The position numbers were made by a program, and so were the translations under genes. The notes beneath the pieces are model-generated. The model searched no databases. It was given only the letters and a program-made list of their open reading frames with translations, and was not told the origin of the DNA. From IMG/VR virus record IMGVR_UViG_3300033183_000554, positions 1-48,547 of that record: a stretch of DNA of 48,547 nt. One strand, written 5' to 3'. This document shows, one piece after another, positions 5,705-44,019 of this stretch. How positions within the stretch are numbered: position 1 is the stretch's first letter; the number at the start of each line of letters is the position of its first letter. This DNA comes from a virus.

Positions 5705-6109
5705 TCACCCCCCTTCAACGCTTAATCGGAGCGAGACCGTGTGTGTGCCCACGAGCTTGGAGACGTTAGCGGCGAGGTCCGTCAGCGCTCGCTCGCGCCC
5801 CCCCTGACAGCTCGCTTGAGCGAGGGGGACGCCGTCCACGCAGACGCTCACCACCCAACGCCACCCACTCGGCGTGCTCTCGGGTACCCGCAAGCGGAGC
5901 TGGGCGCGCACGAGGTGAGCGCTGGTGAGGTCTACCGCTTGCTGTACCTCGGCGTAGTCACCGTGAGCGAGCTCATGAAGGTGACCGAGCTCTAGGTCGC
6001 CCAGCACAAACACATACTCACCGAGAGGCGCGGCGCTCCCTGTCTGCTCAAGCGCGTTGAGCCGACCTTGTGACGAGCCAAGCCGGGCGTTAAAGGCCGT
6101 GACGCGCAC
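5705..6109 (-). CDS. Hypothetical baseplate-region protein
   Basis: This is a 134-residue soluble protein, mostly beta-rich, with two cysteines (SVCVDG and QASCQGG). It begins with GTG three bases after the TAA of the upstream gene and has no distinct RBS, so it is probably translated by coupling. I do not recognise a family. It lies among baseplate genes, and a structural or accessory role there is likely by context only. Confidence 0.55.
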
Positions 6110-6111
6110 GC

Positions 6112-6807: not shown

Positions 6808-6822
6808 GTCGCTCTCCTTATC

Positions 6823-7350
6823 TTAGATTGTGTGGGCGCTCTCCCAAGCGCCCTCAAAGTCTTCAAGCGGAGCCGCGGCGCTCCCAACAGCGCCCCAGCT
6901 CCACAGGTAGCCCTCATTCCCTCCCCACTGGTCCTCAAAATCTTCGCGCTGCTCCCCATCAAAGGCCCCAACCACGCGAGCGACCCCCTCCCAAGCGGTC
7001 GCGTAATGGTCGTTGGCCCACCCTGTCTCAAAGCCGTCGATCTCACCCACACCAAGAGGGGCTACCACGAGCTGAGCGCCGGACCACTCCTCGAAGATGA
7101 GGTCATTGGCCCAGCCCTCCTCGAAGTCCTCTACCCCCTCCGGCGCAGGGTCGAAGGACGCGCGCACCGCGGTCACCTCCTCAAAGGCGCTCCAACGCTC
7201 AAACCAGCGCTCAAAGCCCTCCCATGCGCGCGTAGGATCAACACCAAAGCCGGCGAGCTCCTCGCGGCTCGTCACGGTGACGAGCGTCCAGTGTTCGGCC
7301 TCGCCGGGGAGCTGACCGGCGTCTTCAAAGCTCGGGTTTAGGGTCACCAT
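6823..7350 (-). CDS. Acidic tryptophan-repeat protein of the baseplate cluster
   Basis: The 175-residue protein is very acidic. It holds about five copies of the pattern (V/I/L)-x-D-F-E-x2-W-(A/G)-(N/G)-(D/N/E)-x5-W, near residues 45, 75, 105, 137 and 163, so the period is about 30 residues. It starts at an ATG that overlaps the stop of the J-like gene (TGATG). It has no membrane segment. I do not recognise the function. Repeats of aromatic and acidic residues suggest a protein-binding or sugar-binding strip on the baseplate, which is inference. Confidence 0.6.
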   Translation of the reverse strand: MVTLNPSFEDAGQLPGEAEHWTLVTVTSREELAGFGVDPTRAWEGFERWFERWSAFEEVTAVRASFDPAPEGVEDFEEGWANDLIFEEWSGAQLVVAPLGVGEIDGFETGWANDHYATAWEGVARVVGAFDGEQREDFEDQWGGNEGYLWSWGAVGSAAAPLEDFEGAWESAHTI

Positions 7351-8861
7351 CAGAGCGAGGCTCCGGTGTCGCCGTTGATGAGCGAGATCGCGCCCAAGGT
7401 CGGGAACTCTTGTGGCCTCAGCTTGACGTCGGCGGGTAGGCCGTTGATGGTCAGGTCGCCTGGCGCGTCACCCACTTTACGCACCCCCTCAGTGTCACGG
7501 ATGACGTTAAACACATCAGACCACGCCACCTCTCCGCTGTATTGCCCTGTCGCGTCTTGAAGGTTAAAGCCAAAGTCTACGCGCGGGTTTGGCGTCCCAT
7601 CCGGCAGGCTCACCCGAAAGTAGTCGCTCAGGTTCTGCTCAACCCTGCTCCTGATCAGGGTCGCAGAGGTGCCCGCGCGAAGAAACACACGCGCCGCGAC
7701 ATCGAGCCGCTTATACACAGGGTCGAGCACGCTCACTTGGAAGGTCAGGGTGCAGGGATAGACCTCCGTGACCTGCTTAAGCGCGAGGCGCTTGAGCGCG
7801 GGGGTGGGTGAGCCTCCGCCTTGGGGGATGATGTGGAGCACGCCCGCGTTCTCGTCGATCGTCGGGTCTTCATTAGAGGTGAGCATCAGGGCTCGGGCGA
7901 CGCCCTGCAGTCGTCTCGCGTTGATCTCAAAGTCCTCACGGGCCACCGAGCGGGTCATCGCGCGCAGGCTCTCGGGGGCTAAGAGCCGCGCAGAGGCGAC
8001 GCTCTGGCGGTCTGTGCCCCCTGAGGCGGGCGTGGGGTTGGTCACGGAGAGCTGCACAGGTTGACCGCGCGCGTCTACGAAGCTCCCCTCAATGACCACG
8101 AGCCGCCCCGCGTCGATGTTCCCGTTGCTCCCACCCCCGGTCTTATACAGGACCGTGACGGTCCCCGTTGGGGGCGCGCCGTTGCGCCCATCACCAAAGC
8201 GAATCGTAACGCGATCAACCTGATCAACCCTCGTGATAAAGTGGCGGTCGTTAGGCCCTGAGTTGAGGAAGCTCTCCACCTCTAAGTAGCTGCCAGTCGC
8301 GGTGCTCACGACCGCGGACCCATCGAGGTAAGGGGCTTGGCTGAGGGTCAGCTCAAAGTTTTGAAGCCCTCGAGCCTCGGCGCGCTGGGTGTGAGCCTGT
8401 GAGTGTTCAGCGATCGCGATCACGCTCGGAGGTTCTCGCTTAGCAGAGATCACCGCGTCGCTAAGTAGCTGAAAGCGCACAGGCTCAGTCACCTCTTGGG
8501 TGCGTAGCCTCGCCCCGGCAGGGATGAGCACGTCCGCGCTGGGTGAGCGTGAGAGCTTGAGCTCCACCTCGGCGGTGGCCGCCGTCGCTCCTTGAAGTCG
8601 ATAGCCGAGCAGCTGAGCGAGGGCCATGACGTTCTTGCGCTGAGTCGCGGTCACGAGCCGCGACTCACGGGCGAGGTTGTCTTGGTAGAAGGTGAGCGTG
8701 TCACCTACAAAGGCGTAGAGCTCGATGAGCAGGTTGCCGAAGCTCGCCACCTCGAAGTCTGTCCAGTCGGGGAACACGCTCTGCACGAGCGAGATGAGCC
8801 TCGCTCGGAGGGCGTCGAAGTCCTTATCGGTGTAGTCCACCGAGCTCGGGAGCACGCTCAT
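7350..8861 (-). CDS. Baseplate wedge protein, gpJ / gp47-like
   Basis: This 503-residue protein starts [19 protein letters not shown]. The N-terminus ([38 protein letters not shown]) is the typical start of the Baseplate_J family in T4-like and eCIS-like tails. The middle contains [15 protein letters not shown], another family hallmark, and the last third ([14 protein letters not shown]-type region) forms the J C-terminal domain. I chose ATG 8861 because it forms an ATGA overlap with the gp25-like gene; an upstream reading extension is Arg-rich and improbable. The protein forms the wedge that clamps the sheath base. Confidence 0.9.
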
Positions 8862-16653: not shown

Positions 16654-18015
16654 ATGAGCGTACACACCCCACGACACCCTCGCCTCGCGCTGCTCACCGC
16701 CTCAGCGCTCCTTAGCCTCGCCGCTTGTGAAGCCCCCAAGCCAGGCGCGGGCCCAGTCTTGAGCATAGAGCCCGCGAGCCTCGTGATCGCGCTCCCGACT
16801 GAGGGCGACTACCAAGAGGGGAGCGTGGTGCTCCGCAACGTAGGGAGCGCCGATGTGCTGATCACCGAGCTTGAGCTCACCGAGGAGGACGACACGATGG
16901 AGTTGACGCTGCTCGACGCTGATGATTGGCAGAGCCGCGTGACCCTTCGCCCAGATGAGAGCCGTGAGCTGAGGGTGGGCTGGCGCCTGCTCGACGCCCA
17001 AGCCGACCGTGGCCAGATCACGCTCACCAGCAACGACGGGGAGCGGGTGATTGAGATCACCACCGAGGACCCAGACGCCGACGTGCTGGTCCAGACGACG
17101 CCTGAGCTCGAGTCGGGCGCCACCGGGGACATGGTGGTCTTAGACCAAGCGGTCGGGGGCGCGTGGCAGCGCGCTGAGGTCACCTTCGTGAGCATCGGCC
17201 ACGCCCCGCTCCGCTTCGACTCGCTCTGCCTTGTCGACGGGGACGGCGCCTGTGTCGAGGACGCCTCCCCCTTCCAGCTCTGTGACGGCGCCGGGGCGAG
17301 CCCAAGCGACTGCGCCCCCATCGCCGACCTCCGCTCACTCCCCAACGCCGGGAGCCTCACGGTGAGCGTCCTCTTTAGCCCTGAGCGCTCGATGAGCCGG
17401 GTGGCCGTGACCCGCCTGCGCGCCCTCACCAACGCCACCCAGACGCCCGACGTCACCGTCACCTTCAACGGCATGCGCTGCGTCCGCGACGAGCTCAACA
17501 CCCTCTGCGGGGCCTGTGGCAACGGTGAGGTCGACGCCGAGCTTGGTGAGACCTGCGACCCTGGCGAGGCGCTCAGCACCGAGGAGTGCGCCTCAAACTG
17601 CCGTGTCCCCGACCCCGAGCCGTCTGACCGCGATGAGGACGGGGTGATCGACGATGAGGACAACTGCCCCGACACGCCTAACGTCGACCAGGCCGACTGT
17701 AACGGCAACATGATCGGCGACGCCTGTGATGAGGCCGAGTGCGGCCCCGACCGCGACATGGACACGGTGATCGACGCCCAAGACAACTGCCCCGACACCC
17801 CCAACGCCGACCAGCTCGACACCGACGGCGACGGCGCGGGTGACGTCTGTGACCCCAACCCCAACGCGCCCCAGCACGTGCTCACCCGCCAGCGCTTCAC
17901 CCACACCGGCGGGGTCTCCACCGGCATGCGCTACCGCCTCCGTGGCACGCTCAACACTGGCACCCACCTCTCGAGCAGCTCACGCAACGTCCTGCGTGGC
18001 AACTTGATGCCTTAA
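16654..18015 (+). CDS. Secreted lipoprotein with thrombospondin type-3 repeats
   Basis: The 453-residue protein has a lipoprotein signal (LALLTASALLSLAAC, lipid Cys at residue 25). An Ig-like domain follows, of the choice-of-anchor/ASH kind (SVVLRNVGSADVLITELEL). Then comes a DUF4215-like Cys motif (CGNGEVDAELGETCDPG). Next are two thrombospondin type-3 calcium-binding repeats (DRDEDGVIDDEDNCPDTPN and DAQDNCPDTPNADQLDTDGD). The C-terminus is short and Ser/Arg-rich. This architecture is common in outer-membrane lipoproteins of Myxococcota/Bradymonadota and not in virions. It lies 68 bp before the collagen-like gene on the same strand, so the two probably form an operon. I see only a weak RBS. 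Confidence 0.85.
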   Translation: MSVHTPRHPRLALLTASALLSLAACEAPKPGAGPVLSIEPASLVIALPTEGDYQEGSVVLRNVGSADVLITELELTEEDDTMELTLLDADDWQSRVTLRPDESRELRVGWRLLDAQADRGQITLTSNDGERVIEITTEDPDADVLVQTTPELESGATGDMVVLDQAVGGAWQRAEVTFVSIGHAPLRFDSLCLVDGDGACVEDASPFQLCDGAGASPSDCAPIADLRSLPNAGSLTVSVLFSPERSMSRVAVTRLRALTNATQTPDVTVTFNGMRCVRDELNTLCGACGNGEVDAELGETCDPGEALSTEECASNCRVPDPEPSDRDEDGVIDDEDNCPDTPNVDQADCNGNMIGDACDEAECGPDRDMDTVIDAQDNCPDTPNADQLDTDGDGAGDVCDPNPNAPQHVLTRQRFTHTGGVSTGMRYRLRGTLNTGTHLSSSSRNVLRGNLMP

Positions 18016-18083: not shown

Positions 18084-21000
18084 ATGAGACGTCCCTCCCA
18101 CGCCTTAATCGCCTTGATGACGGCCTGCGCCCTGCTCTTGAGCGCCTCGCCGAGCGTCGCCCAAGAGCCCGACCTTGAGCCCCTCTCGATGGGCTACCAA
18201 GGTCACCTCTCCGATCTCGCAGGTAACCCCTACAACGGGGAGCGCCAGATCACCTTCCGACTTTATGACGCGCTCGTCGAGGGCAACGTCATCTGGGAGG
18301 AGATGTTGGTTGATGTGTTGGTGAGCGACGGGTACTTCCATGTGAACCTCGGCCTCAACCCCGAGGCTCCGCTCCCGCTCGACCGCGCCCCCGACGCCCC
18401 GCTGTTCTTAGCGGTTCAGGTCTCTGGCGATGATGAGCTGATCCCTCGCCTCCGCGTCGGCGCCGCCATCCGCTCCCAGTGGGCCGAGCGCGCCACGCAG
18501 GCCAGCCTCGCCGATCACGCCACTGATGTCAGCGGTGAGGACATCCACCCCTCCACCGTCAGCATCGGCGAGCGCGAGGTGATCAACGCCGAGGGCCAGT
18601 GGGTCGGTGAGCCCATCGAGGGCACCGGCTCCGGCGAGGCCGGCCCTCAAGGGGAGCCCGGTCCTACGGGTGAGCCCGGCCCCCAAGGTGAGGCTGGCCC
18701 TCAAGGGGAGCCCGGCCCCCAAGGTGAGCCCGGGCCTCAAGGTCCCCAAGGTGAGCCCGGCCCCCAAGGGCTCAGCCCCTCCCCCGCCGAGGTCTCCGCC
18801 GAGCTCGCCTCCGATGAGGTCTTCCGCTCCAACCTCGCCGATGACTTAGCGCTCAATCACCCTGACGCGGTCCGTGGCCCCCAAGGTGAGGCTGGCCCCC
18901 AAGGTGAGGCCGGCCCTCAAGGTCCCATCGGTGTGCAGGGCGCCCCCGGCGCGATCGGCCCACAAGGGGTCGGGGTCGCCGGCGCCGTGGTCAACACCTC
19001 CGGTCAGCTCGAGGTTACGCTCACTAACAGCGCCGTCCTCAACGCCGGCTCTGTTATGGGCCCTCAAGGGCCTCAGGGGCCCCAGGGTGTCCAGGGCGCC
19101 GCCGGGCTCAACGGTCAAGATGGCGCTCAAGGGCCTGCGGGTCCTCAAGGTGAGCGTGGCCCCATCGGGCCCGCCGGTGACGGGCTCTCTCTCGATCAAG
19201 ACTCCGATGGGGACGGCTTCCAAGACTGGGTCGAGTCCATGGTCGGCTATGACCCTTATAATGAGCTCGATTTCCCCATCGATGATGACCAAGACGGCGT
19301 CCCCGATCTCCTCCGTGGCCCCCAAGGGCCTCAAGGTCAACAAGGGCTCCGCGGTGAGCGCGGTTTGCAGGGTCTCCAAGGGGCGCCTGGTACGACCGGC
19401 GCCCAAGGGGTTGGGGTAGCAGGCGCCCTCGTGAACGCCTCCGGTCAGCTCGAGGTCACTCTAACCAATAGCAATGTGCTGAACGCTGGGAACGTAGTCG
19501 GCCCTCAAGGTCCCCAAGGCGCTCAAGGGCTCCAAGGGGCCACCGGCGCCACCGGCGCCCAAGGTGAGCCCGGCGCCACCGGCCCTCAAGGCCCTCAGGG
19601 TCCTATCGGCCCCGCCGGTGATGGCCTCTCCCTCGATCAAGACACCGACGGGGATGGCTTCCAAGACTGGGTTGAGGCGATGGTCGGCACCGATCCTCAA
19701 AGTCCTTCATCTCTCCCTGTTGACGCGAATCAAGATGGGATCCCTGATGTGATGCGTGGCGCTCAAGGCCCTGTTGGTCCTCAAGGTGAGCAAGGGGCCC
19801 AAGGTGATGTAGGGCCCGCCGGTCCTCAAGGTGAGCAAGGGCTCCAAGGGCTCCAAGGTCCTCAAGGTGAGCAGGGGCTTACAGGTCCTCAAGGTGACCA
19901 AGGTGGTATAGGGCCCGCTGGTCCTCAAGGTGAGCAGGGGCCTCAAGGGGAGCAAGGTCCTGAAGGAGCCCAAGGGCCTCAAGGCCCCGCTGGCCTTAAA
20001 GGTGATCAAGGCGAGCAAGGTGTTGCAGGGCCACAAGGCCCCGCAGGCGAGTCGATTGATCTCAACCTCGATACAGATGGTGACGGCTTCGCTGATTGGG
20101 TCGAGGCGATGCTCGGCTACGCACCTGACACCGCGCTCGACACGCCTCCTGACGCGAACGGCGACTTCGTAGCCGATACGCTCGTAGGCCCTCAAGGTGC
20201 GACCGGACCTCGCGGTCTTCGTGGGTTGCAGGGTGAAGCGGGCGTCGGTGTCAACGCCGCAGCAGTGACTGCGGGCGGGGAGCTTCTCCTCACGATGACG
20301 GACAGCACCGAGATCAACGCGGGCTCTGTGATCGGGCCTCAAGGCCCACAAGGCGCTCAGGGGCCTGCAGGTCAGCAAGGCGTCCAAGGTCTACAAGGTG
20401 AAGCGGGTCCAGCGGGTCCTCAAGGCGCTCAAGGTCCTGCGGGCGCTCAAGGCGAGGCAGGTCCTCAAGGCGACGTGGGCCCTGCAGGTCCACAAGGCAC
20501 ACCCGGCGCTGATGGGGTGAGCGTGTCAGGCGCTAGCGTCAACGCCTCAGGTGAGCTCGTCCTCGCGCTCTCTGACAGCACCACGCTCAACGCCGGTCAT
20601 GTTGTAGGGCCTCCAGGGCCTCAAGGTGAGCAAGGGGTTCAAGGTGAGCAGGGTTTACAGGGTGAGCAAGGGGTTCAAGGTGAGCAGGGTCCTCAAGGTG
20701 AGGCTGTGAACCTCCAGACTGACTCAGACAGTGATGGCTTCGCCGATTGGGTCGAGGCGATGGTCGGGACTGATCCCGCCGATGGCGCTGATAAGCCTGT
20801 TGACCTCGATGCTGATGGGGTCCCTGATCAGCTTAAGGGCGCTCAAGGTGAGCAGGGGCCTGCAGGACCTAAGGGTGATCAAGGTGATCAGGGCGCTCAA
20901 GGTGTAGCGGGCCCCGCTGGTGCTGTAGGTCCTGCTGGTGCGGTTGGCCCCGCCGGTCCTCAAGGGGAGCAGGGTGTTCAAGGCGAGCAGGGGCCTGAGG

Positions 21001-22442
21001 GTCCACAAGGTCCTCAAGGTGAGCAAGGGCCCGCGGGTGATGGCGGGCTCAATGTCACGACACACGATGGGCGCGCAGAGCTTAACCTCGGCTCCGTGGT
21101 CGCCGGTACTCGCGCTCAGAGTAATGAGTCTCCCATTGATGTGCCTGACAATAACCCCACAGGGATCACCGGTGTGATTTTCTTTAACGCCCCCGGCCTC
21201 GTGATCGAGCGCCTCTCGCTTGATGTGGTGGTGAGTCACCCTGATGTGAGTCAGCTGACCGTGACGTTGACCGCTCCGTCTGGGACTTCAGTCGTTGTGC
21301 ATGACGGCACCGTTGGTGGTGCGGACTTGAGCTTGAACTATCCTCGTCAGCGCTTGGTGGCCTCAGGGTCCATGGAGGACTTTCATGGTGAGGAGGCGAA
21401 CGGGATTTGGAGTTTGCAGGTGGTCGATGGGGCTGATGGGGATACGGGGAAGCTGATGAGCTGGGCGCTTAATGTGAATGAAGGGTATCAGGATGGGTCA
21501 TTGTTTGTGGGGAATGACTTGGAGGTGGATGGGGATTTAATTGTAAAAGGGCGAGTTGACAGTGCCAATATCTCACCTTACGTAGTTGCTTTTAATGAAT
21601 ATCGGGCTTTTTATTCAGATGAGCTAATATCTTCCAACTATGATTACTGGCTCACCAATAATGATTTGATAATTAGTCCCTATGGTGAGAAGATGTGTAT
21701 TTTGACGAGTCGTGGATTAATGATCTACAGGACTCAGACTGGCGTCGCGACATACGATGAAGAACGTGTAATTGATATAACAACGAGAAGTTCTGATTGT
21801 TGCGGTCTAACCGATGAGGGAAAAATAGTTTGTTATAAGAATGATTTATCAATGTTTCAGTTTGGAGTTGGCTATAAGCAGATTTCAGGAAACAATAATT
21901 TAGTATGCGGACTCAAAGAAGATAACTCTATTGAGTGTAAAAATAGCTCCAATTCAATAATCTCAGTCGCTTCAGGCTTGTTTAAAAATATATTTAATAA
22001 CTATGCTAGATCTGCATTAATATGTGCCCAAAGAGAAAATAAACAGATTCAATGCTGGAAATATAACACTATACTAATCACTTCGTCTGTTCAATCTTAC
22101 TACAAAAGTATAGCTATTGAGGAGATTAATGCGACACCAAATGTTGCTTGTGGAGTCGTTGACGAGGCCTCGGTATCTTGTACTGATGGAAGTAATTATG
22201 CTTGGGGTAACATTTTGAAATTAGTCAAGGTTAACAGTGATTTATATGGACTTACTCGCGATGGACTTATTCAGTCCACTGATACAACGAGACAACCTCC
22301 ATCGGGAGCCCGTTTTTCTGATATAATTCCACAAGTATTGGGAAGCAACGGTGTATGTGCTTTATCACTTTCAAAAAATGGTACGACCTGTTGGTCGCGA
22401 TCTAGCACTTACACTGCTGACAACTATACCCTTGTTTACTAG
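18084..22442 (+). CDS. Giant secreted collagen-like protein with P-domain and RCC1-like tip
   Basis: The 1452-residue protein has a signal peptide (1-26, ending SPSVAQ) and an N-terminal beta domain (30-140). A long Gly-X-Y collagen-like region (about 187-987) is rich in [12 protein letters not shown] units. It is interrupted by four calcium-binding inserts (DxDxDGDGFxDWVExM..., near 369, 515, 659, 876) and four beta modules ([21 protein letters not shown]..., near 296, 441, 720, 811). A proprotein-convertase P-domain follows (about 1010-1133). The C-terminal 290 residues resemble RCC1-type repeats with paired cysteines ([33 protein letters not shown]). The gene becomes sharply AT-rich near nt 21,530. 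It is likely a trimeric surface stalk with an exchangeable tip. A role in host adhesion or lysogenic conversion is inference. Confidence 0.85.
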
Positions 22443-31602: not shown

Positions 31603-32541
<939 letters not shown>

Positions 32542-32552
32542 CAGCGGGCTCC

Positions 32553-33401
32553 TTACAGGTCATGAAAGGAGATCGCCTTATCGACGCTCTCCCGGTCCAT
32601 CGGGTTATTCAGGTCCATCGGCCAGCCCACGTCTCTGGGGGCGGCCTTGCGTGTCATCTCGGGGCTCGAGGCGCTGTGAGGCAGCCCGAACTGCTTCTCA
32701 ACGCGCGAGAGGCGCTGCTGTTGGCCTCGGACCATCTCAGCCAAGGCGCGCAGCGAGGTGTTGATCGTCTCAAGAGAGCGCGTGAGCTCACCGGGGGGCT
32801 CCGGTGGGCTTGGCTGCGCAGGGAGCGTCTCCGGCTCTGCGTCTCGCTCTGAAGTGTTCTCAGCAGAGGTCTCAGCAGAGGTCTCAGCAGTGTTCTCAGC
32901 AGTCCTCTCAGATGTACCTTCAGCGAGGTCTGCCGAGGGACCTTGAGTGAGCTCTACTCCACCGCTCACGCTCATCATCTGCTCAAGAGCGCTCGCGAGG
33001 CCCTCAAGCGCGTTGATCGCCGTGGACAGGAGCGGCTCGGGCTGTTGAGCTGAGGTGTGCGAGCCCTCAGTAGAGGCGACTTGAGCGCCCTTTGAGTCTT
33101 CTGAAAAATCTACTTGAGGGGCATCATTACCACTATCATCTAGGCCAGAATCGAGGTCAAATACTCCATCAGGTTCAGCCTCAGCGCTCGGCTCTGCTTC
33201 AGGTTCAGCAAAATGATCTTTATTAATCAATCCTGTGATTATACTGTTTGTCTCAGGTGTCGGCTCAGCCATATCGGGCTCGCTCCTCTTCACGATCAAA
33301 AATCGGCGCTGGTTAGCGGCGCGATCCACGAGGGACACCTCCTCGACCTGAATGTCGATGAGGCGGCTCACCGGTCGCGCTCGGGATAAGGGCTCACTCA
33401 T
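32553..33401 (-). CDS. Scaffold-like protein
   Basis: The 282-residue protein starts with [27 protein letters not shown], the signature seen at protease/scaffold borders in many myophages. A long acidic Glu/Ser/Thr region follows, with a tandem ([17 protein letters not shown]). A coiled coil lies near the C-terminus ([21 protein letters not shown]). It would guide capsid assembly and be degraded by the protease. It overlaps the upstream protease gene by ATGA. Confidence 0.75.
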
Positions 33402-34675
33402 GCTCGCTCCTCCTCGGCGGTGGGCTCAGGCACGCGGCGCGCGGAGCCTCCAATCGAAAACCCGGTGAGCTCCCCTCGCTTCACGCGCTCCCAGAGCTCA
33501 TCAGAGTGCACGCGGACCGCGAGCAGCCACGTCCCCTTAGCGACGCTCAGCTCACCGACCTGGAAGGGGGTAGGCGCCACGTAGCTCTCTAGCACCTTCA
33601 CCTGATCATTGACGCGCAGCTCATGCATGAGCCCGAGCCCACCAAACTCCTCCATAAAGCGGTGGGCCGCTTGGCGCACCTCCTCATGTGAATAGATGTC
33701 GCCCTGCGCGTCCACCTGCTCAGGGACTAGGACGACGCCAAGCACATAGCGCTCGTCATTTGGGTCCACCCCCTTAATCAGCTCACAGACCTTCTCAATG
33801 GGCGGATCTTCGAGCAGCTCTGCAGACTCAAGGTCTTTCTCTACAAACTTGTAGTTGGCGACGAGCAGCTGGGTGAGCATCTTCGGGCCGCCGACGCCAC
33901 GCATGGACCCAATTGTGCGCGGGGTGCGGACGCGCTTGATAAAGTAGCCCGCGTCCTTGAGCAGCTTAGGGAGCTTCCCGCGCACCCCATAGGTCATCAG
34001 CCACTTACCCTTAAGCGACTTGAGCACCTCAAAGAAGCGCTCCTCATCAAAGGTCGACTCCCCGACGTTCACGTTATAGCCGGGGTAGGGTGGGTCGAGG
34101 AAGAACACGGTGTCTGCGCTATCATGCTTACGGACCACCGGCTCATAGTCTCCCGAGTAGACCTTGACCTGAGCGAGCCGCGAGCCATGCTGCTCTAGCC
34201 TGCTTATGGTCTTGGCCTCAATCCCCTGCCCGCTCGGACTAAAGCTCTTGCCGCGCAGCTTCCCATACGAGAAGTGGGTGAGATAAAGGAAGCGGTGCAG
34301 TCGCTCTAGCTCCCCGCGCGGTTGAGCGTCGATGAGCCCCTTGAAGGTCGCGAGGTCGCCAGTCCACTTCATCCCTCGGAGCTTATTGAGCTTGGCGGGG
34401 GTGAGCTTCTGGATCACCTGAAAGGCCTGTGCGATCTCAGGGTCAGCGTCATTGATGACCTCAACCTCCGAGGCCTCCTTCTCAAAGAGCACCGCCGCCG
34501 AGCCCGCGAAGGGCTCCACGTACACGCGGTGCGGGGGGAGGAGCTTAGCGAGCCGCGGCGCGAGGCGCTTCTTGCCGGCTGGCGACCCCCAGATCGTCTT
34601 TTCTATTGTCTCAGGGGAGCAGCTCTCTAAAATTTCACGCGCCCTCTGCAGGGCCTCCTGTGCCTGCTCAGACAT
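33398..34675 (-). CDS. DNA adenine methyltransferase (D12 class) fused to XkdF-like prohead protease
   Basis: The 425-residue protein has two domains. Residues about 25-285 are a D12/Dam-type N6-adenine methyltransferase: motif [13 protein letters not shown] (53-64), motif [13 protein letters not shown] (191-201), and QLLVANY near the end. Residues about 308-412 match the phage XkdF serine-protease family: [39 protein letters not shown] and [11 protein letters not shown]351 and S407 are candidate catalytic residues. It precedes the scaffold and capsid genes, exactly where a prohead protease belongs. ATG 34675 is preferred, with AAGGGG 7 nt upstream. The fused methyltransferase is unusual: see findings. 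Confidence 0.85.
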
Positions 34676-34976
34676 GACGCAGCCCCTTCGGGTCACGCCC
34701 CCAGGTCAGCGCTACACCCGAGGTGTCCGCCATATCACGGGGCCACTGCTCATCGCTCACCTCTTCAAGCTCACTCTTTGTGGTAGGCGTAGCGCTCTCA
34801 AGCGCGCTCCGCATGACGTTCAAGAGCCCGGTGAGCTCCTTGTTGAGCCCTGCTGAGATGGGCTGATCACCCGCCCGGTTCAGTTGATCCACCACCGCCC
34901 CGAGCCGGTCGCTCACTCCATGAAGTGCGCGCGCGACCTGTCGCGCTGTCGGTGTCCTGCTCTGCTCATGCGCCAT
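34668..34976 (-). CDS. Small hypothetical protein, first gene of the head operon
   Basis: The 102-residue helical protein begins MAHEQSRTPTARQVARALHG. It contains an amphipathic region (SDRLGAVVDQLNRAG, KELTGLLNVMRSALESA). It overlaps the fusion gene and is first behind promoter copy D. Function unknown. Confidence 0.6.
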   Translation of the reverse strand: MAHEQSRTPTARQVARALHGVSDRLGAVVDQLNRAGDQPISAGLNKELTGLLNVMRSALESATPTTKSELEEVSDEQWPRDMADTSGVALTWGRDPKGLRHV

Positions 34977-35206: not shown

Positions 35207-36553
35207 ATGATCATCAGCTTCTCAGTTGAGAACTGGCTCTCCTTTCGAGCGCCGGTCACGTTCTCCATGATCGCGAGCAGGGAGCGCCAGCACGGCGACC
35301 GAGTCACAAAGCTCCGTAAATATAAGACCCGCGCGCTCCCAATCGCGGCGATCTATGGGGGGAACGCGTCAGGTAAGACGAACCTCTTTAAGGCGCTGAG
35401 CTTCGCCAAGATGTTCATCGTGAAGGGGACCCAACCTGACAACCTGATCCCTGTTGAGCCCTTTCGTTTAGACGGCCAGTCTGTCGATCAACCCTCACGG
35501 TTCAGCTTTGAGCTCTTGATTGGTGAGGTGATCTATGACTTTAGCTTCGCGGTGAGCCGCGCCAAGGTCCTTGAGGAGCGCCTCGTGGAGATCACGAGCT
35601 CTAGTGAGCGGGTGCTCTATGATCGGCGTAAGGGCGCCCCGAACTTCGACCGCTCGCTCGCGAGAGACCAGCTCCTCAAGTTTGCTTTTCAGGGCACGCG
35701 CGACAACGTGCTGCTCTTAACGAACGCCGTCTCTCAGCGAGTGGATCACTTTAGGCCTGTCTATGACTGGTTCAAGAGCACGCTCACGCTCATCGCCCCA
35801 GACTCGCGTTTTGAGCCCTTCGAGCGCTTTTTTGATGAGCGCCATGAGCTCTACTCAACCATGAACGAGCTCCTCCCGCTGCTCGACACAGGGATCACCA
35901 AGCTTGGGATAGAGGAGCTACCTTTCGAGAACCTGCCGCTGCCCGACACGCTGAGGCAGAGCCTCCAAGAGGAGGTTAGAGAGGGCATGAGCGTCCGCCT
36001 GTTGACCGAGCCGATGCATGAGCGCTTTGTGGTGACCCGACGAGATGGGGCGCTCATCGCTCAAAAACTTGTGACGTATCACACTAAAGCGGACGGCACC
36101 GAGGTTAAATTCGACCTCCGCCAAGAGTCCGATGGCTCTCAGCGGGTCATCGACCTGCTCCCCGCCCTCCTCGACCTGTCTGCTCAACGCTCCAAGCGTG
36201 TTTATGTGATTGATGAGATCGACCGCAGCTTACACACGATGCTCACGCGTCAGCTCCTCGAGGCGTACTTGGGGAGCTGCTCCACCGAGTCGAGGAGCCA
36301 GCTCCTCTTCACGACCCATGACGCCCAGCTCCTCGATCAAGAGCTCCTGCGTCGTGATGAGATGTGGGTCATTGAGCGCGGCGCTGCGGGTGGCTCAAGC
36401 TTAAGCTCCTTCAGTGAGTTTAAGGACGTGCGCTACGACAAAGACATCCGTAAGAGCTACCTTCAAGGGCGCTTAGGCGGCGTCCCTCGGCTCCGCCTTG
36501 GTGGCGCGCTCAGTGAGCTTTACGTCGGTGTCGCTCGTGAGGAGATCAGCTGA
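35207..36553 (+). CDS. AAA-type ATPase, RloA/AbiLi-like defence protein
   Basis: The 448-residue protein is an ABC/SMC-like ATPase of the AAA_15/AAA_21 type. Walker A is GGNASGKTN (51-59). The signature-like segment [18 protein letters not shown] and Walker [15 protein letters not shown] are in the second half, followed by LLFTTHD. It starts [16 protein letters not shown], typical of these anti-phage ATPases. It is on the + strand against the phage genes and has its own AT-rich promoter. It shares a stop/start overlap with the RloB-like gene. It is thought to sense infection and control the partner nuclease. PARIS AriA and OLD-like proteins are related alternatives; the partner decides for RloB. 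Confidence 0.85.
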
Positions 36554-37161
36554 TGCCTTCTAAGAGGCGCAGCTTTCGCCGCCCACTTGGAGAGCGGCGG
36601 TATCGTAAGCTGTTTTTGATCGCGGTAGAGGGCTTTAAGACAGAGCCTCAATATTTCGCGCTCTTCAATGACCAGCGCTCCGTGATTAGGGTCCACTGCC
36701 TTAAGGGGAATCATGACAGCTCCCCACCTCAAGTGCTCAAGCGTATGAAGGAGCAGCTTCGCCGAGAGTCACTGAGGTCCTCAGATGAGGCGTGGCTCGT
36801 CGTTGATAAAGACCAATGGACAGAGGAGCAGCTCACCCTGCTTCACTCCTGGGCTCAGGTGCGTGATCAGTATGGCTTCGCGCTGAGTAACCCCAAGTTT
36901 GAGTATTGGCTTTTGCTTCACTTTGAAGACGGCGCAGGTGTCGCCTCTTCAAAAAATTGCGCTGAGCGCCTAAAGAGGTACCTCCCTGATTATAATAAGG
37001 GGGTCGACGGTCGACATATCACGCGAGAGCGTGTAGAGGCGGCAGTGCAGCGAGCGAAGCGTCGGGATCACCCTCCCTGTGCAGATTGGCCACGCGCGCT
37101 CGGGGGGACTACGGTGTATCGCCTCGTGGAGGGCCTCCTTCGTGGGGTCGATGAGAGCTAA
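36553..37161 (+). CDS. RloB-like (AbiLii-type) TOPRIM nuclease effector
   Basis: The 202-residue protein shows the RloB pattern. [11 protein letters not shown] (25-35) supplies the acidic residue of the TOPRIM-like core. VVDKDQW (83-89) is the second acidic site. [13 protein letters not shown] (112-124) is the third hallmark. A basic C-terminal region follows. In RloA/RloB and AbiL systems this is the effector, probably acting on nucleic acid, with the ATPase as sensor. The start overlaps the ATPase stop. It ends six bases from the stop of the convergent MuF gene, so the cassette fits tightly into the phage operon border. Confidence 0.8.
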
Positions 37162-37167
37162 CTGCAA

Positions 37168-38259
37168 TCAGCTCCTTAAAACCGCCGGCACCGTCGTCGT
37201 TCGGCAGAGCCCATGGTAGGGAGGAAACCCCACACCAAGCTCCATGAGCGCCTTGTTGCTTAGCGCTCGGCGATGCTCGCCTCGGTCATCGGCTACACCG
37301 ACCCCTGAGCGGGTCACCTCAACCAGCGGAGCGCGCCCCCCACCTCGCTCCACATAGAGCACTGTGTTTCCGTTGGTAGGGTCAACGCCCTCCCTCACCC
37401 AAGGCTGAGCTCGCTTGACCGCTTCAGGTCGCTCAAGTTGGTCAAGCGCGTCGAAGCGGCGGAGCGCGTCGCCTACCTCAAAGACCTTCCCGTGCAGAAA
37501 GCGACACGCTTCGGTTGTCTGCTCATCGAGCACCGCCTCAATGAGATAGCGACTGACACCTGCCTCGGCGTAGCTGCTGAGCTGAGCGTAGCTTCGGCCG
37601 TTGCCGATAAATGAGCTGGCGATGATGTCCCAATAGAACGGAGAGCGACCTGAGAGGGTGCCTTGAGCGGCGCTCTGGAGCGCTGCAGAGATGTCATCTC
37701 TACCGAGGCCCACCTCTAAGCCCTCAGTGACCACGCGGCGCGCCTCGACACCAAACGCCTCGACACGTCGCCCCAGCTCATCAGTGACGAAGTTGACCTG
37801 AGCGCGTGTGATGTGAGCGGTGATGCGCCGGTCGAGCGCGTTAAAGTCGGCGCTGATCGCTACCCCTTGAGCCCTGCGCGCGTGGCTTCGGGTCGCAGAG
37901 ACGACCTCGTCTGCCGCCGGGCCAAGGATGCTCTGAACACGTGCGGGAATCAGCGCCGTTGAGCGACCTGCAGCGCTCATCGCAGCGGTGACGAGCTGAC
38001 GACGCTGCTCAGCTGTGGTCTGGCTCCACTCCACATCAAGCGCGCTCACCGCGCCACGGATCGCGTCACGCACAGGAGCCCTCGATTGACGACGAAGCTC
38101 CGCCGCGAGCGCCACCACCGCTTGATCAAAGCCTGAGGTTGTCCCCAGCTGCATCGCTTTAGCGATCGGCTGATGTAGGAGCGGCGCGGTGAGCTCCTCA
38201 ACGAGCACCCTCGCCTCAGAGAGAGCGGTGAGCCGCTCAAGCGCACATGAGCCACACAC
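37168..38259 (-). CDS. Minor head protein, MuF / SPP1 gp7-like
   Basis: The 363-residue protein carries the MuF pattern: EVGLGRDDISAALQSA, YWDIIASSFIGNGRSYAQL, ISRYLIEAVLDEQTTEACRFLHGKVF and a C-terminal LGVGFPPYHGLCRTTTVP with the conserved H/C pair. It follows portal as in many myophages and would bind the portal or be injected. Translation starts at GTG 38259 just after the upstream stop; an N-terminal CGSC is present. Confidence 0.88.
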   Translation of the reverse strand: MCGSCALERLTALSEARVLVEELTAPLLHQPIAKAMQLGTTSGFDQAVVALAAELRRQSRAPVRDAIRGAVSALDVEWSQTTAEQRRQLVTAAMSAAGRSTALIPARVQSILGPAADEVVSATRSHARRAQGVAISADFNALDRRITAHITRAQVNFVTDELGRRVEAFGVEARRVVTEGLEVGLGRDDISAALQSAAQGTLSGRSPFYWDIIASSFIGNGRSYAQLSSYAEAGVSRYLIEAVLDEQTTEACRFLHGKVFEVGDALRRFDALDQLERPEAVKRAQPWVREGVDPTNGNTVLYVERGGGRAPLVEVTRSGVGVADDRGEHRRALSNKALMELGVGFPPYHGLCRTTTVPAVLRS

Positions 38260-38260
38260 C

Positions 38261-38512
38261 TCAGCCTCTCCCTATGAGCGAACCACGCTGCAGAGCGCGG
38301 AGCTCTAGCCCCCGCTCGGTGCTCCTCATCAGCAGGTCGCTCCGCTGTACGCATCGATCACAGAGCGCGAAGACGAGCAGGCCGTTGCGCCAGAGCGTAG
38401 TGGTCTCATCAAGCCCACGCGTCTGCCGACACACCCGACATTCAATCACCCCACGCTCCGCGTCGTGTTGCGCTTGCCTCACCCACGCCTCGTTCAGCTC
38501 ACTCGCCTTCAT
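38261..38512 (-). CDS. Small zinc-finger protein between portal and MuF genes
   Basis: The 83-residue protein begins MKASELNEAWVRQAQHDAERG. It contains two CxxC knuckles, ECRVC (C25, C28) and LCDRC (C51, C54), spaced as in a four-Cys zinc ribbon. It has a strong RBS (GGAGG, 5 nt before ATG) inside the end of the portal gene and overlaps it by 14 bp. It is probably real. Function unknown; a head assembly or DNA-binding accessory is possible. Confidence 0.65.
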   Translation of the reverse strand: MKASELNEAWVRQAQHDAERGVIECRVCRQTRGLDETTTLWRNGLLVFALCDRCVQRSDLLMRSTERGLELRALQRGSLIGRG

Positions 38513-40340
38513 CGTCACCTCCCTCGCGCCTCGGTCGATCAAGCCAGGACTCAAACTCATCGCGCGGCACCAACACTCGCTCTGTCTGCTCATCAAGGTA
38601 GCGACGCGCGAGCTGCGCTCGGCGCTGAGAGAGCCTCGACTCCTCTGAGCTGAGCTCCTCGCGGAGCGTGAGCAGGCGACGCGCGTCACCCAACAGTGAG
38701 CGAGGCTCCTCTGCCCTCTTCTCTGCCTGAGATCGAAGGTCCTGAACACCGGTCTGGATACCAGCCAAGGTGAGGGTGATGGGGCGCTTCGTCCAATCAT
38801 CTCCGATCTTGCGGAGCTCGCGGTTGAAGATGTCACCCGCTAAGACGCGCCCCTCCTCAGGGGTGAGCACGCCCACACGCACCAGCTTCTCGACCATCGC
38901 CGTCATGCGCTCAGGGTCGCGAGTGACTGGGGTCTGTGAGCGGAAGCGCCAAAAGCGGATCCCCATGTCGGCGAGGAGCTTTCGGTTGATGAGGTAGTCA
39001 AACTCATCTCGCTCGGGCTGAAACACTTGATCCTCTGCGAAGCGCAACGCGGACTCAGCGGTCGCGCGGTTAAAGTCTTTGCTCTCTCCACGGAGCAGGC
39101 GAGGGAGGCGAAAGGCCCCGCCTACCTTGTCGATGTTCCGCTCATCATAGAGCTGAAAGAGGGCGTCTTGCTGTTGAGCCTCAGTGAGCGGTCGCAGCTC
39201 GATCTTAGCGCGGCTGTCGCCTTGCCCACCCCCCTCCGCTTCGAGGATAAGGATCTTGTGGAAGTTGCTCTTACCCTTCAGGTTCTCCTCAATAAAGCGC
39301 TCGATGCGAGGCACGGAGGACTCTGAGAGCCGGCCTCCCGAGATGAGCAGAGCGAGCGGTGGCACGCTCTTGTTCTCAAAGTAGAGGTAGTTGACCTCCT
39401 CCATCTGCCGAGAGCCTAAGACCGCGAGGAGCGAGCCGACCCAGCGCGGGACACCATAAGGCGTACGTGGGGAGTGGATCGCGAAGTGCAAGAGCTCTGT
39501 AGCGGGCGCGTCGTTACTGTCTGTGCGTCGCAGCTGCTCAGCGGACTGATGAGCCTCGCCCGTGTGTTTTGAGATCACGCGAGGGTCACCAAAGGCCTTA
39601 AAGTACACTCGATCAGCTCCGTGCACCTGCACAAAGCGCCGCGTCCGCCTACGCGCTGGGATCGACTCGAAGGACACAGGCGAGACCTGGACTCGGTCTA
39701 TGACCTCAACCGGCGTTGGATCAATCGGCATCAACCGCACCGTGTGTGAGGGCACATACACGAGCCGCGCGAGCTCCCCTCGGCCGTCGCGCAAGACCTC
39801 CCAGAAGGCGTTCCCAGTCGTCTCTAGGTCCTGTCGAGTCCGTCGGCGCAGGTCGACAAAGGAGTGATCAAAACAGCAGAAGTCAAAGAAGGACTGGAGC
39901 CGCGCTCGCTCAACACGCGCGAGGTGCATGAGCGCCCGCTTTCGCGCGCTCACCTCCTCATCGGTGGCCTCAAGCGTCAAGCCCTCCTCAAGCTCCCCAC
40001 GCTCCCGCGCCGCGTAGCGCTCAAGGAAGATCGTGTCGGCGACGCGCGCGTCTGCGTCTTCATCTTCAAAGTCGATCGCAGGGTCAAAGCGATGCCCGAA
40101 GCCGTCGATGTTGACCGCATAGGCGTCTAGGTTCTGTCGGAGGGCGTTGGAGTGCTCCACCAAGAGGCACAGAGCGGTCGGGTCATAAGGCGGCTCTAGC
40201 GCGCCCGCCGACTGAAAGACGCTCGCGGCCTCCTCCGCCTCTAGGCGCGCTGAGTCAGCGACGTCTTGGCCTACCACCACCGCCTTCAGGACGCTCTGCA
40301 GCCGCTCATGCGCTCGCGCCGCGCCCTCGACTCCGCTCAT
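38499..40340 (-). CDS. Portal protein (PBSX-type)
   Basis: The 613-residue protein has family segments: LCLLVEHSNALRQNLDAYAVNIDGFGH, DLETTGNAFWEVLRDGRGELARLVYVP, FKAFGDPRVIS, ELLHFAIHSPRTPYGVPRWVGSLLA, and IEENLKGKSNFHKILILEAEGG. The C-terminus is helical and charged. It forms the dodecameric DNA channel at one vertex. It follows a 70-residue gene with a TGATG overlap. Confidence 0.92.
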   Translation of the reverse strand: MSGVEGAARAHERLQSVLKAVVVGQDVADSARLEAEEAASVFQSAGALEPPYDPTALCLLVEHSNALRQNLDAYAVNIDGFGHRFDPAIDFEDEDADARVADTIFLERYAARERGELEEGLTLEATDEEVSARKRALMHLARVERARLQSFFDFCCFDHSFVDLRRRTRQDLETTGNAFWEVLRDGRGELARLVYVPSHTVRLMPIDPTPVEVIDRVQVSPVSFESIPARRRTRRFVQVHGADRVYFKAFGDPRVISKHTGEAHQSAEQLRRTDSNDAPATELLHFAIHSPRTPYGVPRWVGSLLAVLGSRQMEEVNYLYFENKSVPPLALLISGGRLSESSVPRIERFIEENLKGKSNFHKILILEAEGGGQGDSRAKIELRPLTEAQQQDALFQLYDERNIDKVGGAFRLPRLLRGESKDFNRATAESALRFAEDQVFQPERDEFDYLINRKLLADMGIRFWRFRSQTPVTRDPERMTAMVEKLVRVGVLTPEEGRVLAGDIFNRELRKIGDDWTKRPITLTLAGIQTGVQDLRSQAEKRAEEPRSLLGDARRLLTLREELSSEESRLSQRRAQLARRYLDEQTERVLVPRDEFESWLDRPRREGGDDEGE

Positions 40341-40715: not shown

Positions 40716-41543
40716 TCACTTGTCTGACATCTCGTTCCCTCTCCAAGGCTCGCCAGGCAGCTTAGAGACAAGCTCGGTGAGCACATGCTCAAAGGCTTGA
40801 TCAAACTCCCATGACAGGCCTGGGCGGAGTAAGATATCCATATCTTGACGAAAGTCTTTACGTCCTGACTTCTCATATAGGTTCGCTTCAAATTGAGCGC
40901 GTGTCACTGAGTGGCCCCCCTCCGCCATATATCGGTTAAAGCAGGTGAGTAGGGCCTCGGTGTTCACGTTCTCGGCTTTCAACGCATACCAAAGATCAAA
41001 GAGGTCACGCCCCTTCTTGCGCTGGTATAGCGCGCGCAGCTTTGTTCCCAAAAGCTCATCAATAGAGAAACTTGTCACATCTGATTGTCCCCTAAACCAC
41101 TGGCTATTAACCTCAAAAGGCACCTTAATGAGCCCTAGCTCACTAAAATGCTCACGTGAGTTGATCTCGATCTTTAACCTTAGCCTCATCGGAGGCGAGT
41201 CACTTGACTCAAAGCGATACACAAGATTAACGCGCCCTTCCTTAAACTTACGCTGAGGTTCTCCGAGCCATGGGTCGAGAGTGTTGCGCAGGAGCGTGAG
41301 GGTCTCCCCGATCGCCTCAGGGTTAATTTGAACCAAATCAATGTCCTCAGAGTAACGAGCTGCGGGACGCAGATAGAGCTTATAAAGGGCTGTACCACCT
41401 CGAAATGCGAGCCGCTCAGCGAGCGCTGGTACAGAGTAAATCTCTACGAGCGCTCGACTGATCACGAGGTCTTGCTCTACCATCCAGTCTGCTGTCCATG
41501 GCGCCTCTCGCCTCCACTCAACAATCGCCTGCTCTCGTATCAT
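40716..41543 (-). CDS. AbiEii-type nucleotidyltransferase toxin
   Basis: The 275-residue protein begins MIREQAIVEWRREAPW. The nucleotidyltransferase core is FRGGTALYKLYLRPAARYSEDIDLVQ, with GG at 49-50 and the DxD-like S-E-D-I-D at 65-69. It is followed by LGTKLRALYQRKKGRDLFDLWYAL, the second family motif. AbiEii/MenT-type toxins transfer nucleotides, often to tRNA 3' ends, and stop growth. I use ATG 41543, which overlaps the antitoxin stop (ATGA). A longer start would need to lie inside the antitoxin gene. Confidence 0.85.
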   Translation of the reverse strand: MIREQAIVEWRREAPWTADWMVEQDLVISRALVEIYSVPALAERLAFRGGTALYKLYLRPAARYSEDIDLVQINPEAIGETLTLLRNTLDPWLGEPQRKFKEGRVNLVYRFESSDSPPMRLRLKIEINSREHFSELGLIKVPFEVNSQWFRGQSDVTSFSIDELLGTKLRALYQRKKGRDLFDLWYALKAENVNTEALLTCFNRYMAEGGHSVTRAQFEANLYEKSGRKDFRQDMDILLRPGLSWEFDQAFEHVLTELVSKLPGEPWRGNEMSDK

Positions 41544-42325
41544 ATATCTGGATCCACTTCGGTGTTGATCGCGACCTGCCATCTTGAGTCTCTGGGTGTC
41601 CCCTCGATCTCTAACCATGAGGCGAGCGCGACGGTGAAAAGCTTACGGTTAGCGAGCACCTCATCTAGACGGAGCGCGAGCTCCTCTTGCTCGACGAGCG
41701 TCAATAAGTAGCCGAGCCGTTGAACCCAAGCAGTAGGCGCGCGCGTCGCTTCAGACACGAGCGCGTCGCCATTAATCGACTCAGCGAGCTCAGATAAGAC
41801 GGTCGCGACGTTATCGAGGAAGCCACACTGCTCCGGGTAACCGACGAGCTCAAGAGCTGTCGCGGCGGCTGAGGCGACGCGGAGCAAACCTGTTGGCGTC
41901 TCGCGCTCAGTCACTGAGGTCCTCTCCATATTCTGACGAGCGGAGAAGTTGACCTGGACCCCACCACACTCAAGGTCGCGTCTTGAGCGTCTGTTCATCA
42001 CCTGAAACGCCATCGGGGCTTGGTGTGAGGCGCCGTGATAAGCGGCGGCGCTCAACAAAGTCACATAGTAAGGCTCGTTTAGGTGGTCCATGAGCTGAGG
42101 GATAAATTGCTCGGGTGGCAGGCACTCTAACCGTCGATATTTAGGTGGGAGCACGACATAAAAGCCTCGTTGAGGCATTGCGATGTGCCCCTTTGCTTTG
42201 AGCCTTCGCAACTGCGCGTGGATCGCGGTGATTGACTTACCGAGCGCTTGGACGATCTCATCGATTGTAAAGATGAGCTGCCCATTCATCTGTAAGCCCT
42301 CGATATAGTGAGCTGCGTTAGTCAC
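41540..42325 (-). CDS. AbiEi-type antitoxin/autoregulator
   Basis: The 261-residue protein has an N-terminal winged helix (QLIFTIDEIVQALGKSITAIHAQLRRLKAKGHI, then MPQRGFYVVLPPKY). An AbiEi-type antitoxin domain follows (YYVTLLSAAAYHGASHQAPMAFQVM, and RVASAAATALELVGYPEQCG). In AbiE systems this binds inverted repeats before its own gene and neutralises the toxin without a stable complex. It is coupled to the toxin gene and has its own promoter and operator-like repeat upstream. Confidence 0.85.
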   Translation of the reverse strand: MTNAAHYIEGLQMNGQLIFTIDEIVQALGKSITAIHAQLRRLKAKGHIAMPQRGFYVVLPPKYRRLECLPPEQFIPQLMDHLNEPYYVTLLSAAAYHGASHQAPMAFQVMNRRSRRDLECGGVQVNFSARQNMERTSVTERETPTGLLRVASAAATALELVGYPEQCGFLDNVATVLSELAESINGDALVSEATRAPTAWVQRLGYLLTLVEQEELALRLDEVLANRKLFTVALASWLEIEGTPRDSRWQVAINTEVDPDI

Positions 42326-42453: not shown

Positions 42454-43881
42454 TCACCCAATCACACGCGCCCCAACCTCTCCGGCCCAGCGCCTCAGCG
42501 CCCGCTCCTGCTGACAAGCGAGCGCGATCGCCCAGAACTTGTCGGCGTGCCCCTTCCCGGTGCGCTCAGCGTCGAAGGTCACGTTCCCTGACGAGGTGAA
42601 GCGGCGCTTGATGCTGTGGAGCTGAGCGACCACCTCGCGGTCACGAGGTAGATCAACGTCGCGGCGCTGGAGCAGGATCTTGAAGTCGGTACACCAGCGC
42701 TCCTTACTCGCGTTGGTGAAGGCCTCGCCCACCACCTGGGGGAAGGCGCGGCTGAGGTTCTCGGCGAGGTTCATCCCGATCCCCGTCTTGTCGATGGAGA
42801 GGCGGGCTACTGGGAGCGTGTTGAGCATACGGTTGAGGTCGGCCTCCTGCTCTGCGAAGGGCACACGATCGTAGCTGCGGAGCATCCGGCAGATGAAGCG
42901 ACCCTTCACCTCCTCAAACAACGCTAGCTCGGAGCGGTCTTGGCTCCGACCAACATCAAAGCCTGCGACGAGGCGCCCCTCGGGGAAGGGCAGGTCGCTG
43001 AAGTCATCGTAGAGCCTCAGGTCCTCTCGGGTGCAGGGGAGGATCAGGTCATAGGGATAAAAGCTGTAGGATTCATCCACAAAGCGACACTCGAGCTCCT
43101 GCTGGAAGTCATCGAGCGGGAGGGAGTCAAACTGTTCAATGATCGTCTGGCGCCCAAAGCGCGCCACGCGCTCCTCGCTGCTCATCAGCGGCGCCTCCTG
43201 CGAGGCTCGCTCGATGTCCTTGCAGAAGAAGCGACACAGCCACCACGGCACCTCTTGGCGAGTGTGATGAGGATACTTACGCAGCTCCTCCGTAGCGATC
43301 TCCCAAAAGATCCCGCGTCGCCCGAGTGGAGTGCTACACCCAGTGAGCTGACCGCTCGAGCGCAGGATAAGCGCGGTTGAGCCGGTGTAGACCTGACGGT
43401 CGTTGATGTAGTGCGCGAGCTCATCGAGGACGATGTCGCCCTTCTTACCGCGCGGAGGCTTGGAGGGCACCGAGAGGATACGCGAGACGCGCCCGCTTGT
43501 GCCGATCGGCTCGAAGGCGAGCTCGGTCTTTGAGTCGACGATGAGCCGCTTCTGGTAGCTTAAAGGCAGCTCCTCATAGACCTGACGGGCGAGCAGGATC
43601 TTCTCCTTGGCGTCGTCGAGGTTATAGCTCACGAACACCGCCGTGTACCCATCTCGCAGGTGACAGCGAGCCAAGGCCTCAAGGGCCACGATGAAGGAGT
43701 ACCCCACCTGTCGGCTCTTGCTGACCCACCGAAAACGGGAGCGGTTCTCGAGGAAGGCGACCTGATAGGGCTCAAGGACGATCGGCTCATTGTCATAAGA
43801 GCATAAACCCGAGATAAAGCCCGCCTCGGTCGCGAGCCAATCCCCGAGCTCACGAGGGGACCTCTTCACTACGGTTAACAT
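42454..43881 (-). CDS. Terminase large subunit
   Basis: The 475-residue protein has an ATPase half with the variant Walker [11 protein letters not shown] (near residue 55) and Walker [12 protein letters not shown] (near 150). The nuclease half has [28 protein letters not shown] and [12 protein letters not shown] with the usual acidic triad. It cuts and packages DNA into the prohead with the portal. ATG 43881 is preferred because AAGGAG lies 8 nt upstream; a GTG at 43890 abuts it. No full copy of the phage promoter motif lies upstream. Confidence 0.92.
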
Positions 43882-44019
43882 ACACGTCACTCCTTAAGGC
43901 CAGAATGCAGCTAAGTAAATAGATTTGATCAGAAAAGCACTTGATCAGCGGTCAGAGTAGAGCGTGTATGACAGAGCCGAGCTCACGGAGCTCATGACCC
44001 CAAGAGCCGAGGAGCGCCT
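43882..44019. other. Intergenic region with a half promoter motif
   Basis: The 138 bp between terminase and recombinase contain GCTCTACTC on the minus strand (43963-43955), matching the -10-like half of the phage motif. The matching -35-like half is absent. GAGGAG before ATG 44020 is the recombinase RBS. Confidence 0.4.

Follow-up and report, generated by a model that had tools for sequence, protein, structure and literature searches.

A phage prohead protease with a predicted N-terminal DNA adenine methyltransferase passenger, the simplest member of a modular family of XkdF fusions

Introduction

Prohead proteases are enclosed together with the scaffold in the immature head, and they usually destroy themselves and leave it. 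The canonical XkdF proteases (Lactococcus phage 28201 gp33, Bacillus phage PBP180 ORF10, PAK_P3 gp3 and VCM_00112) occupy the slot before scaffold and capsid and carry no enzyme cargo. In 28201 gp33 and PBP180 ORF10, a segment like VTHVSYVDKAANKKQFFLTK (VSxVDKAAN) is followed by the protease and then by a scaffold-like region, all in one chain; this is a common XkdF arrangement and no strict defining feature. One independent enzyme-XkdF fusion exists in gp18 of Arthrobacter phage Salgado (L077 in our numbering of loci, positions 1796-2917), which joins a 2'-5' RNA ligase-type (2H) domain to a C-terminal XkdF. The enzyme is a different one from that described here, and another annotated head maturation protease lies upstream.

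A methyltransferase (MTase) is also known to travel in a phage head. Phage P1 packages its MTase-containing DarB protein into the head, and the protein protects the incoming DNA (PMC5512222, PMC9024508). As in the protein studied here, the adenine MTase of DarB and other polyvalent proteins (Iyer et al. 2017, PMC5512222) is one of several domains of a head-associated protein. However, DarB has LPD36 and an SNF2-type helicase, and it is loaded via an N-terminal targeting signal, without a protease fusion (PMC9024508). Dam, DpnM, T4 Dam and Mcbe1 share the fold of the N-terminal domain studied here, but they are free-standing.

In this study, we analysed the window, which is the whole stretch of 48,547 nt of the IMG/VR virus record IMGVR_UViG_3300033183_000554, with the focus on one gene of its head operon. 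An earlier note, made from the letters alone, described this gene as a fusion of an adenine MTase and an XkdF-like prohead protease and considered the fusion not known as described. It proposed that the enzyme would be co-packaged or coupled to capsid assembly, with methylation during packaging or protection of the genome after ejection as possible roles. We found no description of the fusion or of its multi-enzyme forms in the searchable, open-licence literature. The protein is nevertheless already clustered, as a member of phrog_13242 (PHROGs v4, 450 positions), a cluster that comes without a description of function or architecture, and fusion sequences are presumably also present in domain databases.

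Results

The fusion gene

The open frame spans positions 33398-34696 on the minus strand, and its ATG at 34675 gives a protein of 425 aa. The features of the gene are as follows:

33398..34675, minus strand: MTase-XkdF fusion gene, 425 aa plus stop (reading frame, Pfam, PHROGs)
33839..34600, minus strand: D12/Dam-type adenine methyltransferase domain, residues ~26-279 (Pfam PF02086, AlphaFold model and PDB matches)
34493..34516, minus strand: MTase motif I, EPFAGSAA, residues 54-61 (24-relative alignment and motif audit)
34085..34096, minus strand: MTase catalytic motif DPPY, residues 194-197 (invariant in the 24-relative alignment)
33779..33838, minus strand: linker, residues ~280-299 (alignment)
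33434..33778, minus strand: XkdF/Peptidase_S78_2 prohead protease domain, residues 300-414 (Pfam)
33623-33625, minus strand: candidate catalytic His351 (invariant column; role assigned from the S78 fold family)
33587-33589, minus strand: candidate catalytic Glu363 (invariant column; role assigned from the S78 fold family)
33455..33457, minus strand: candidate catalytic Ser407, in GFSIGG (invariant column; role assigned from the S78 fold family)

The single uninterrupted frame with a D12 MTase and a C-terminal XkdF protease, as read in the earlier note, was borne out by Pfam. MethyltransfD12 (PF02086) matched residues 34-230 with 58.3 bits (cut-off 22) and Peptidase_S78_2 (XkdF) matched residues 300-414 with 107 bits (cut-off 24). 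The profile of phrog_13242 covered the fusion end to end (residues 2-420 on positions 2-431 of 450, E 9e-203). An SNF2-type helicase domain was not found in the fusion by domain and PHROG searches. From these matches, the gene is predicted to encode a prohead protease with an N-terminal DNA adenine methyltransferase passenger.

Motifs, fold and selection

The DPPY motif is intact at residues 194-197, but calling motif I intact was slightly overstated: the window protein has FAGSA where the pattern is FxGxG, the last glycine being an alanine. In this position it differs from the free-standing Dam-type enzymes, and its match to the family profile TIGR00571 was below the cut-off. The alanine is the rule in the fusion family (61 of ~75 distinct relatives), while some relatives have FAGSG (EPFAGSGA). 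DPPY was retained in 108 of the 110 distinct MTase domains of the family (motif audit). In the alignment of 24 single-MTase members, DPPY, H351, E363 and S407 are all invariant, and the linker varies in length and sequence, being short in the window and up to ~85 aa longer in others. Pairwise dN/dS was 0.02-0.20 in the MTase and 0-0.15 in the protease. This conservation of the motifs and of the triad, together with the low dN/dS, indicates that both halves are maintained by purifying selection.

Loss of the catalytic aspartate was seen in single MTases of multi-MTase proteins, as APPY in L053 (residues 307-564 of a 1098-aa frame) and as YPPY in the second MTase of L120. Single copies can thus decay while the others stay intact.

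An AlphaFold model computed from the 24-row alignment was confident for the MTase part (pLDDT mostly 70-95) and poor for the protease half, so the protease triad is proposed from sequence conservation. The closest PDB structure to the MTase model in Foldseek was Mcbe1 (7m6b, target TM up to 0.81); E. coli Dam (~0.75), DpnM and T4 Dam were also matched. Against viral models, Foldseek matched free MTases and, separately, XkdF domains, and among the matches listed none aligned well over both halves. One of the models, BFVD A0A6J5PIT0 (uncultured phage, 'Zeta toxin domain protein', 700 aa), matched over 146 columns, probably of the XkdF part, and is possibly another enzyme-XkdF fusion.

GATC was not depleted in the window (305 sites seen vs. 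287 expected), and recognition-site depletion in the window gave no hint of the specificity of the MTase.

The head operon

The fusion gene lies in the protease slot ahead of scaffold and capsid, as the earlier note had placed it. The gene order is terminase, portal, MuF, small ORF, fusion, scaffold and capsid, with two defence-like gene pairs inserted:

42454..43890, minus strand: large terminase
40716-42325, minus strand: AbiEi/AbiEii toxin-antitoxin pair (PF09407, PF08843), between portal and large terminase
38499..40340, minus strand: portal protein (domain and PHROG searches)
37168..38259, minus strand: MuF-like minor head protein (domain and PHROG searches)
35207-37161, plus strand: AAA_21 ATPase and RloB-like protein, classed by PADLOC as an AbiLi/AbiLii-type pair, between MuF and fusion and opposite in strand to the operon
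34668..34976, minus strand: small ORF just upstream of the fusion, present only in the closest relatives
32553..33401, minus strand: scaffold-like protein, with a start that overlaps the stop of the fusion gene (CATGAG)
31603..32541, minus strand: HK97-fold major capsid protein (PF05065, phrog_1623)

The N-terminus of the scaffold (window 33285-33365, minus strand) is near-invariant across the fusion family. In the window and its relatives, this 27-residue VSLVDxAAN segment opens the next gene, the scaffold, and does not belong to the protease chain as it does in 28201 and PBP180; the order in VCM and PAK_P3 is similar to that of the window. The strong conservation of the displaced segment suggests that it may dock the scaffold to the protease or contain a cleavage site.

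Elsewhere in the window, the strand that does not carry the tail genes encodes a protein of 1452 aa (18084-22442, plus strand), which has a P-domain and ten stretches of collagen repeats, and, next to it, a thrombospondin type 3 repeat protein (16654-18015, plus strand).

Recurrence and hosts

Whole-protein searches retrieved 27 viral and 40 genome loci, and in nearly all of those where the fragment holds both domains, MTase and XkdF share one frame. Among these loci are named isolates from three genera (Myxococcus, Corallococcus and Citreicoccus) as well as metagenome-assembled genomes of several phyla. Prophages of Myxococcota are among the closest relatives of the window, e.g. that of Sandaracinus sp. 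(L029, 77-86% identity), and the fusion phage group consists mostly of Myxococcota phages. The XkdF domain was found in 31 of 195 genomes of the phylum of M. xanthus, mostly in frames with an MTase, whereas two other phyla had it in just 2 genomes each, out of 399 and 294 surveyed. In one genome of the M. xanthus phylum (L114, 2163-3458, minus strand), XkdF follows ~270 aa of N-terminal sequence without a Pfam match.

The recurrence that the earlier note had named as support for a genuine fusion is therefore strong, with dozens of independent phage and prophage records. It also bears on the trivial explanation that a sequencing or assembly error joined two genes by a lost stop or a frameshift at residues 285-308. 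The same fusion occurs in isolate genomes and in metagenome contigs, at 57-80% protein identity and with different linkers, which refutes the artefact and leaves such an error scarcely conceivable; we found nothing in its favour.

In GenBank phages, a whole-protein tblastn search returned 437 records, none of which covered 80% of the fusion protein. Some records name the region of the XkdF match 'DNA methyltransferase/prohead protease' or just 'DNA methyltransferase'. These were considered as known fusions and discarded, as they contained XkdF only where checked.

A modular family of passengers

By its domain content, the window protein is the simplest form in a modular family with one to three MTases and LigD-like phosphoesterase/ligase cargo, a family that the earlier note had not recognised. 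MTase-XkdF is the commonest architecture; proteins with two MTases and with three MTases (L053, L056, L057 and L112) were also found, and some versions have an extra 'RDL' segment ahead of XkdF. In another type (L026, L146), a nucleotidyltransferase-like/phosphoesterase-like region and an ATP-dependent DNA ligase (PF01068) precede XkdF. The largest proteins, up to ~2000 aa, combine both kinds of cargo: two MTases, ligase and XkdF in L019 (1712 aa) and three MTases, ligase and XkdF in L111 (a 2175-aa frame). These assignments come from Pfam for L019 and L026, and from BLAST matches to the L026 modules for L111 and L146.

The stretch before the ligase in the L026 type resembles the 3'-phosphoesterase of bacterial LigD (TIGR02777, E 8e-5; PDB 3p43, E 0.0026), and the pairing of a phosphoesterase-like domain with an ATP-dependent ligase recalls LigD itself. 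In contrast to LigD, the modules stand ahead of XkdF in one chain encoded in a phage head operon, and the matches fall far short of the curated cut-offs for LigD. The nucleotidyltransferase-like motif (GG..NKGETKNDIDLL) was called by eye only. With the ligase region of L026 as query, no PDB sequence was matched, and the identity of the ligase rests on Pfam and NCBIfam. For the nucleotidyltransferase/phosphoesterase part of L026, the AlphaFold model had a pLDDT of 35 and was left unused.

All the recognised cargo enzymes are DNA-acting. XkdF is nearly always the last domain, the exceptions being L138, L139 and L140, with ~150 further residues, and L047, with the scaffold; in the latter, MTase, XkdF and scaffold are in one continuous frame (5938-8250). 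Reduced forms were also observed: L113 (4608-5165) has XkdF with a mere remnant of the MTase C-terminus, and the MTases of L048 and L098 have an internal deletion of ~50 aa. On a tree of the XkdF domain, the 12 architecture classes required 29 changes, a count inflated by truncated rows in an alignment of few columns, and cargo has thus been gained, lost or swapped often. Exchange of cargo around a fixed XkdF would produce just such a variety of cargo and so many changes of architecture.

Because the initial search had the fusion itself as its query, a second one used the capsid protein alone and gave 43 loci. An XkdF frame uncut by a contig end was present in 28 of them, and all 28 had N-terminal cargo (an MTase in 26, other recognised cargo modules in 2), with frames taken from stop to stop, so that some N-terminal lengths are overestimated. 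There was no stand-alone XkdF protease among these 28 frames. As the capsid search reaches only relatives of at least 57% identity, the survey describes the fusion phage group and not the XkdF phages at large.

A probable leak of the methyltransferase label

XkdF-only proteins of 138-159 aa are named DNA methyltransferase in PAK_P3, Ps12, VCM and Escherichia phage Mt1B1_P17, and in these 'methyltransferases' only Peptidase_S78_2 was above the Pfam cut-off. The name was present on 18 of 60 records sampled evenly out of 440 XkdF-bearing phage records. Most plausibly, the label on the XkdF-only proteases of many unrelated phages has leaked from the fusion family. The methylome paper of phage PaP1 weighed ORF48 as a putative methyltransferase that might account for the methylome, stating doubts, and the matches of ORF48 were ~117-141 aa long, several of them to Haliangium, Stigmatella and Myxococcus proteins (PMC4177049). 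These genera are myxobacteria, the host group of the fusion family, and from the matches as published, the MTase half outside the alignment is the most likely source of the name of ORF48.

Discussion

With a fixed C-terminal protease and interchangeable DNA-acting passengers, the most economical reading of the family is head loading, release and delivery. A passenger fused to a protease that is enclosed with the scaffold would be enclosed too. XkdF would co-assemble with scaffold and capsid and carry the passenger into the prohead. At maturation, the protease would digest the scaffold and probably cut the linker, and the MTase would be left inside with the DNA. It would then be delivered with the genome, or act on the DNA entering the head, and would shield the phage DNA from host restriction enzymes by methylating it. 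Such a system would work in a Dar-like manner, except that the protease would do the loading. We infer this mode of packaging, cleavage and methylation from the gene anatomy, and the proposal that the prohead protease loads DNA-protecting enzymes for delivery with the genome seems to us evenly poised between right and wrong. In the relatives with LigD-like phosphoesterase and ligase, the same route would deliver end-repair and end-joining enzymes with the linear genome. The wider proposal, that XkdF is a general head-loading and release module whose fused DNA-acting enzymes (MTases, LigD-like phosphoesterase, ligase) enter the prohead together with the scaffold, are freed by the protease and are delivered as a 'first-minutes toolkit', is somewhat less likely than not. 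The bulk of the cargo in the largest members counts against head loading, as does the absence of GATC depletion in the window, and as prohead proteases usually destroy themselves and leave the head, the cargo may be destroyed as well or fail to stay in the virion.

The main rival explanation keeps the MTase in the producing cell. The fusion would tether it to the assembling proheads, the DNA would be methylated at packaging, and the MTase would be removed with the protease, none being delivered. The same anatomy fits this course of events, many phages have unfused Dam-type MTases that presumably modify DNA in the cell (tblastn), and the adenine methylase Mox encoded by phage Mx8 of M. xanthus is a precedent (PMC6070905). 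However, an unfused MTase would do the same without a tie to the head protease, and the ligase modules of the relatives are less obviously useful before packaging; we consider this explanation unlikely, although it deserves serious attention. It is more doubtful that the two genes were simply joined in the past and kept together for co-expression, cleavage of the linker freeing two independent enzymes with no role in assembly. The variable length and sequence of the linker indeed indicate that the domains need no fixed geometry, and the MTase remnant of L113 and the internal deletions of L048 and L098 would fit such a history. The constant N-terminal position of the cargo in the 28 complete capsid-anchored frames, the lack of a stand-alone XkdF in that set and the repeated exchange of cargo speak against it.

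A catalytically dead MTase, serving as a DNA-binding or structural element of the scaffold-protease complex, would agree with the missing last glycine of motif I in most members (EPFAGSAA) and with the altered motifs of one of the three L053 MTases and of one L120 MTase. The retention of DPPY in almost all distinct domains, the predicted Dam fold and the EPFAGSGA of some members make it very improbable.

If the cargo is packaged, the fusion would be a new route by which phages load enzymes into their heads, and it would offer a ready-made model for placing proteins of choice inside capsids. Among the multi-enzyme virion-associated proteins, the chance that it represents a new loading mechanism is a credible one. 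Several cultivable myxobacteria carry the locus, which makes it testable there. The fusion family moreover offers an explanation, and a correction, for the mislabelling of XkdF proteins in many Pseudomonas, Escherichia and Lactococcus phages.
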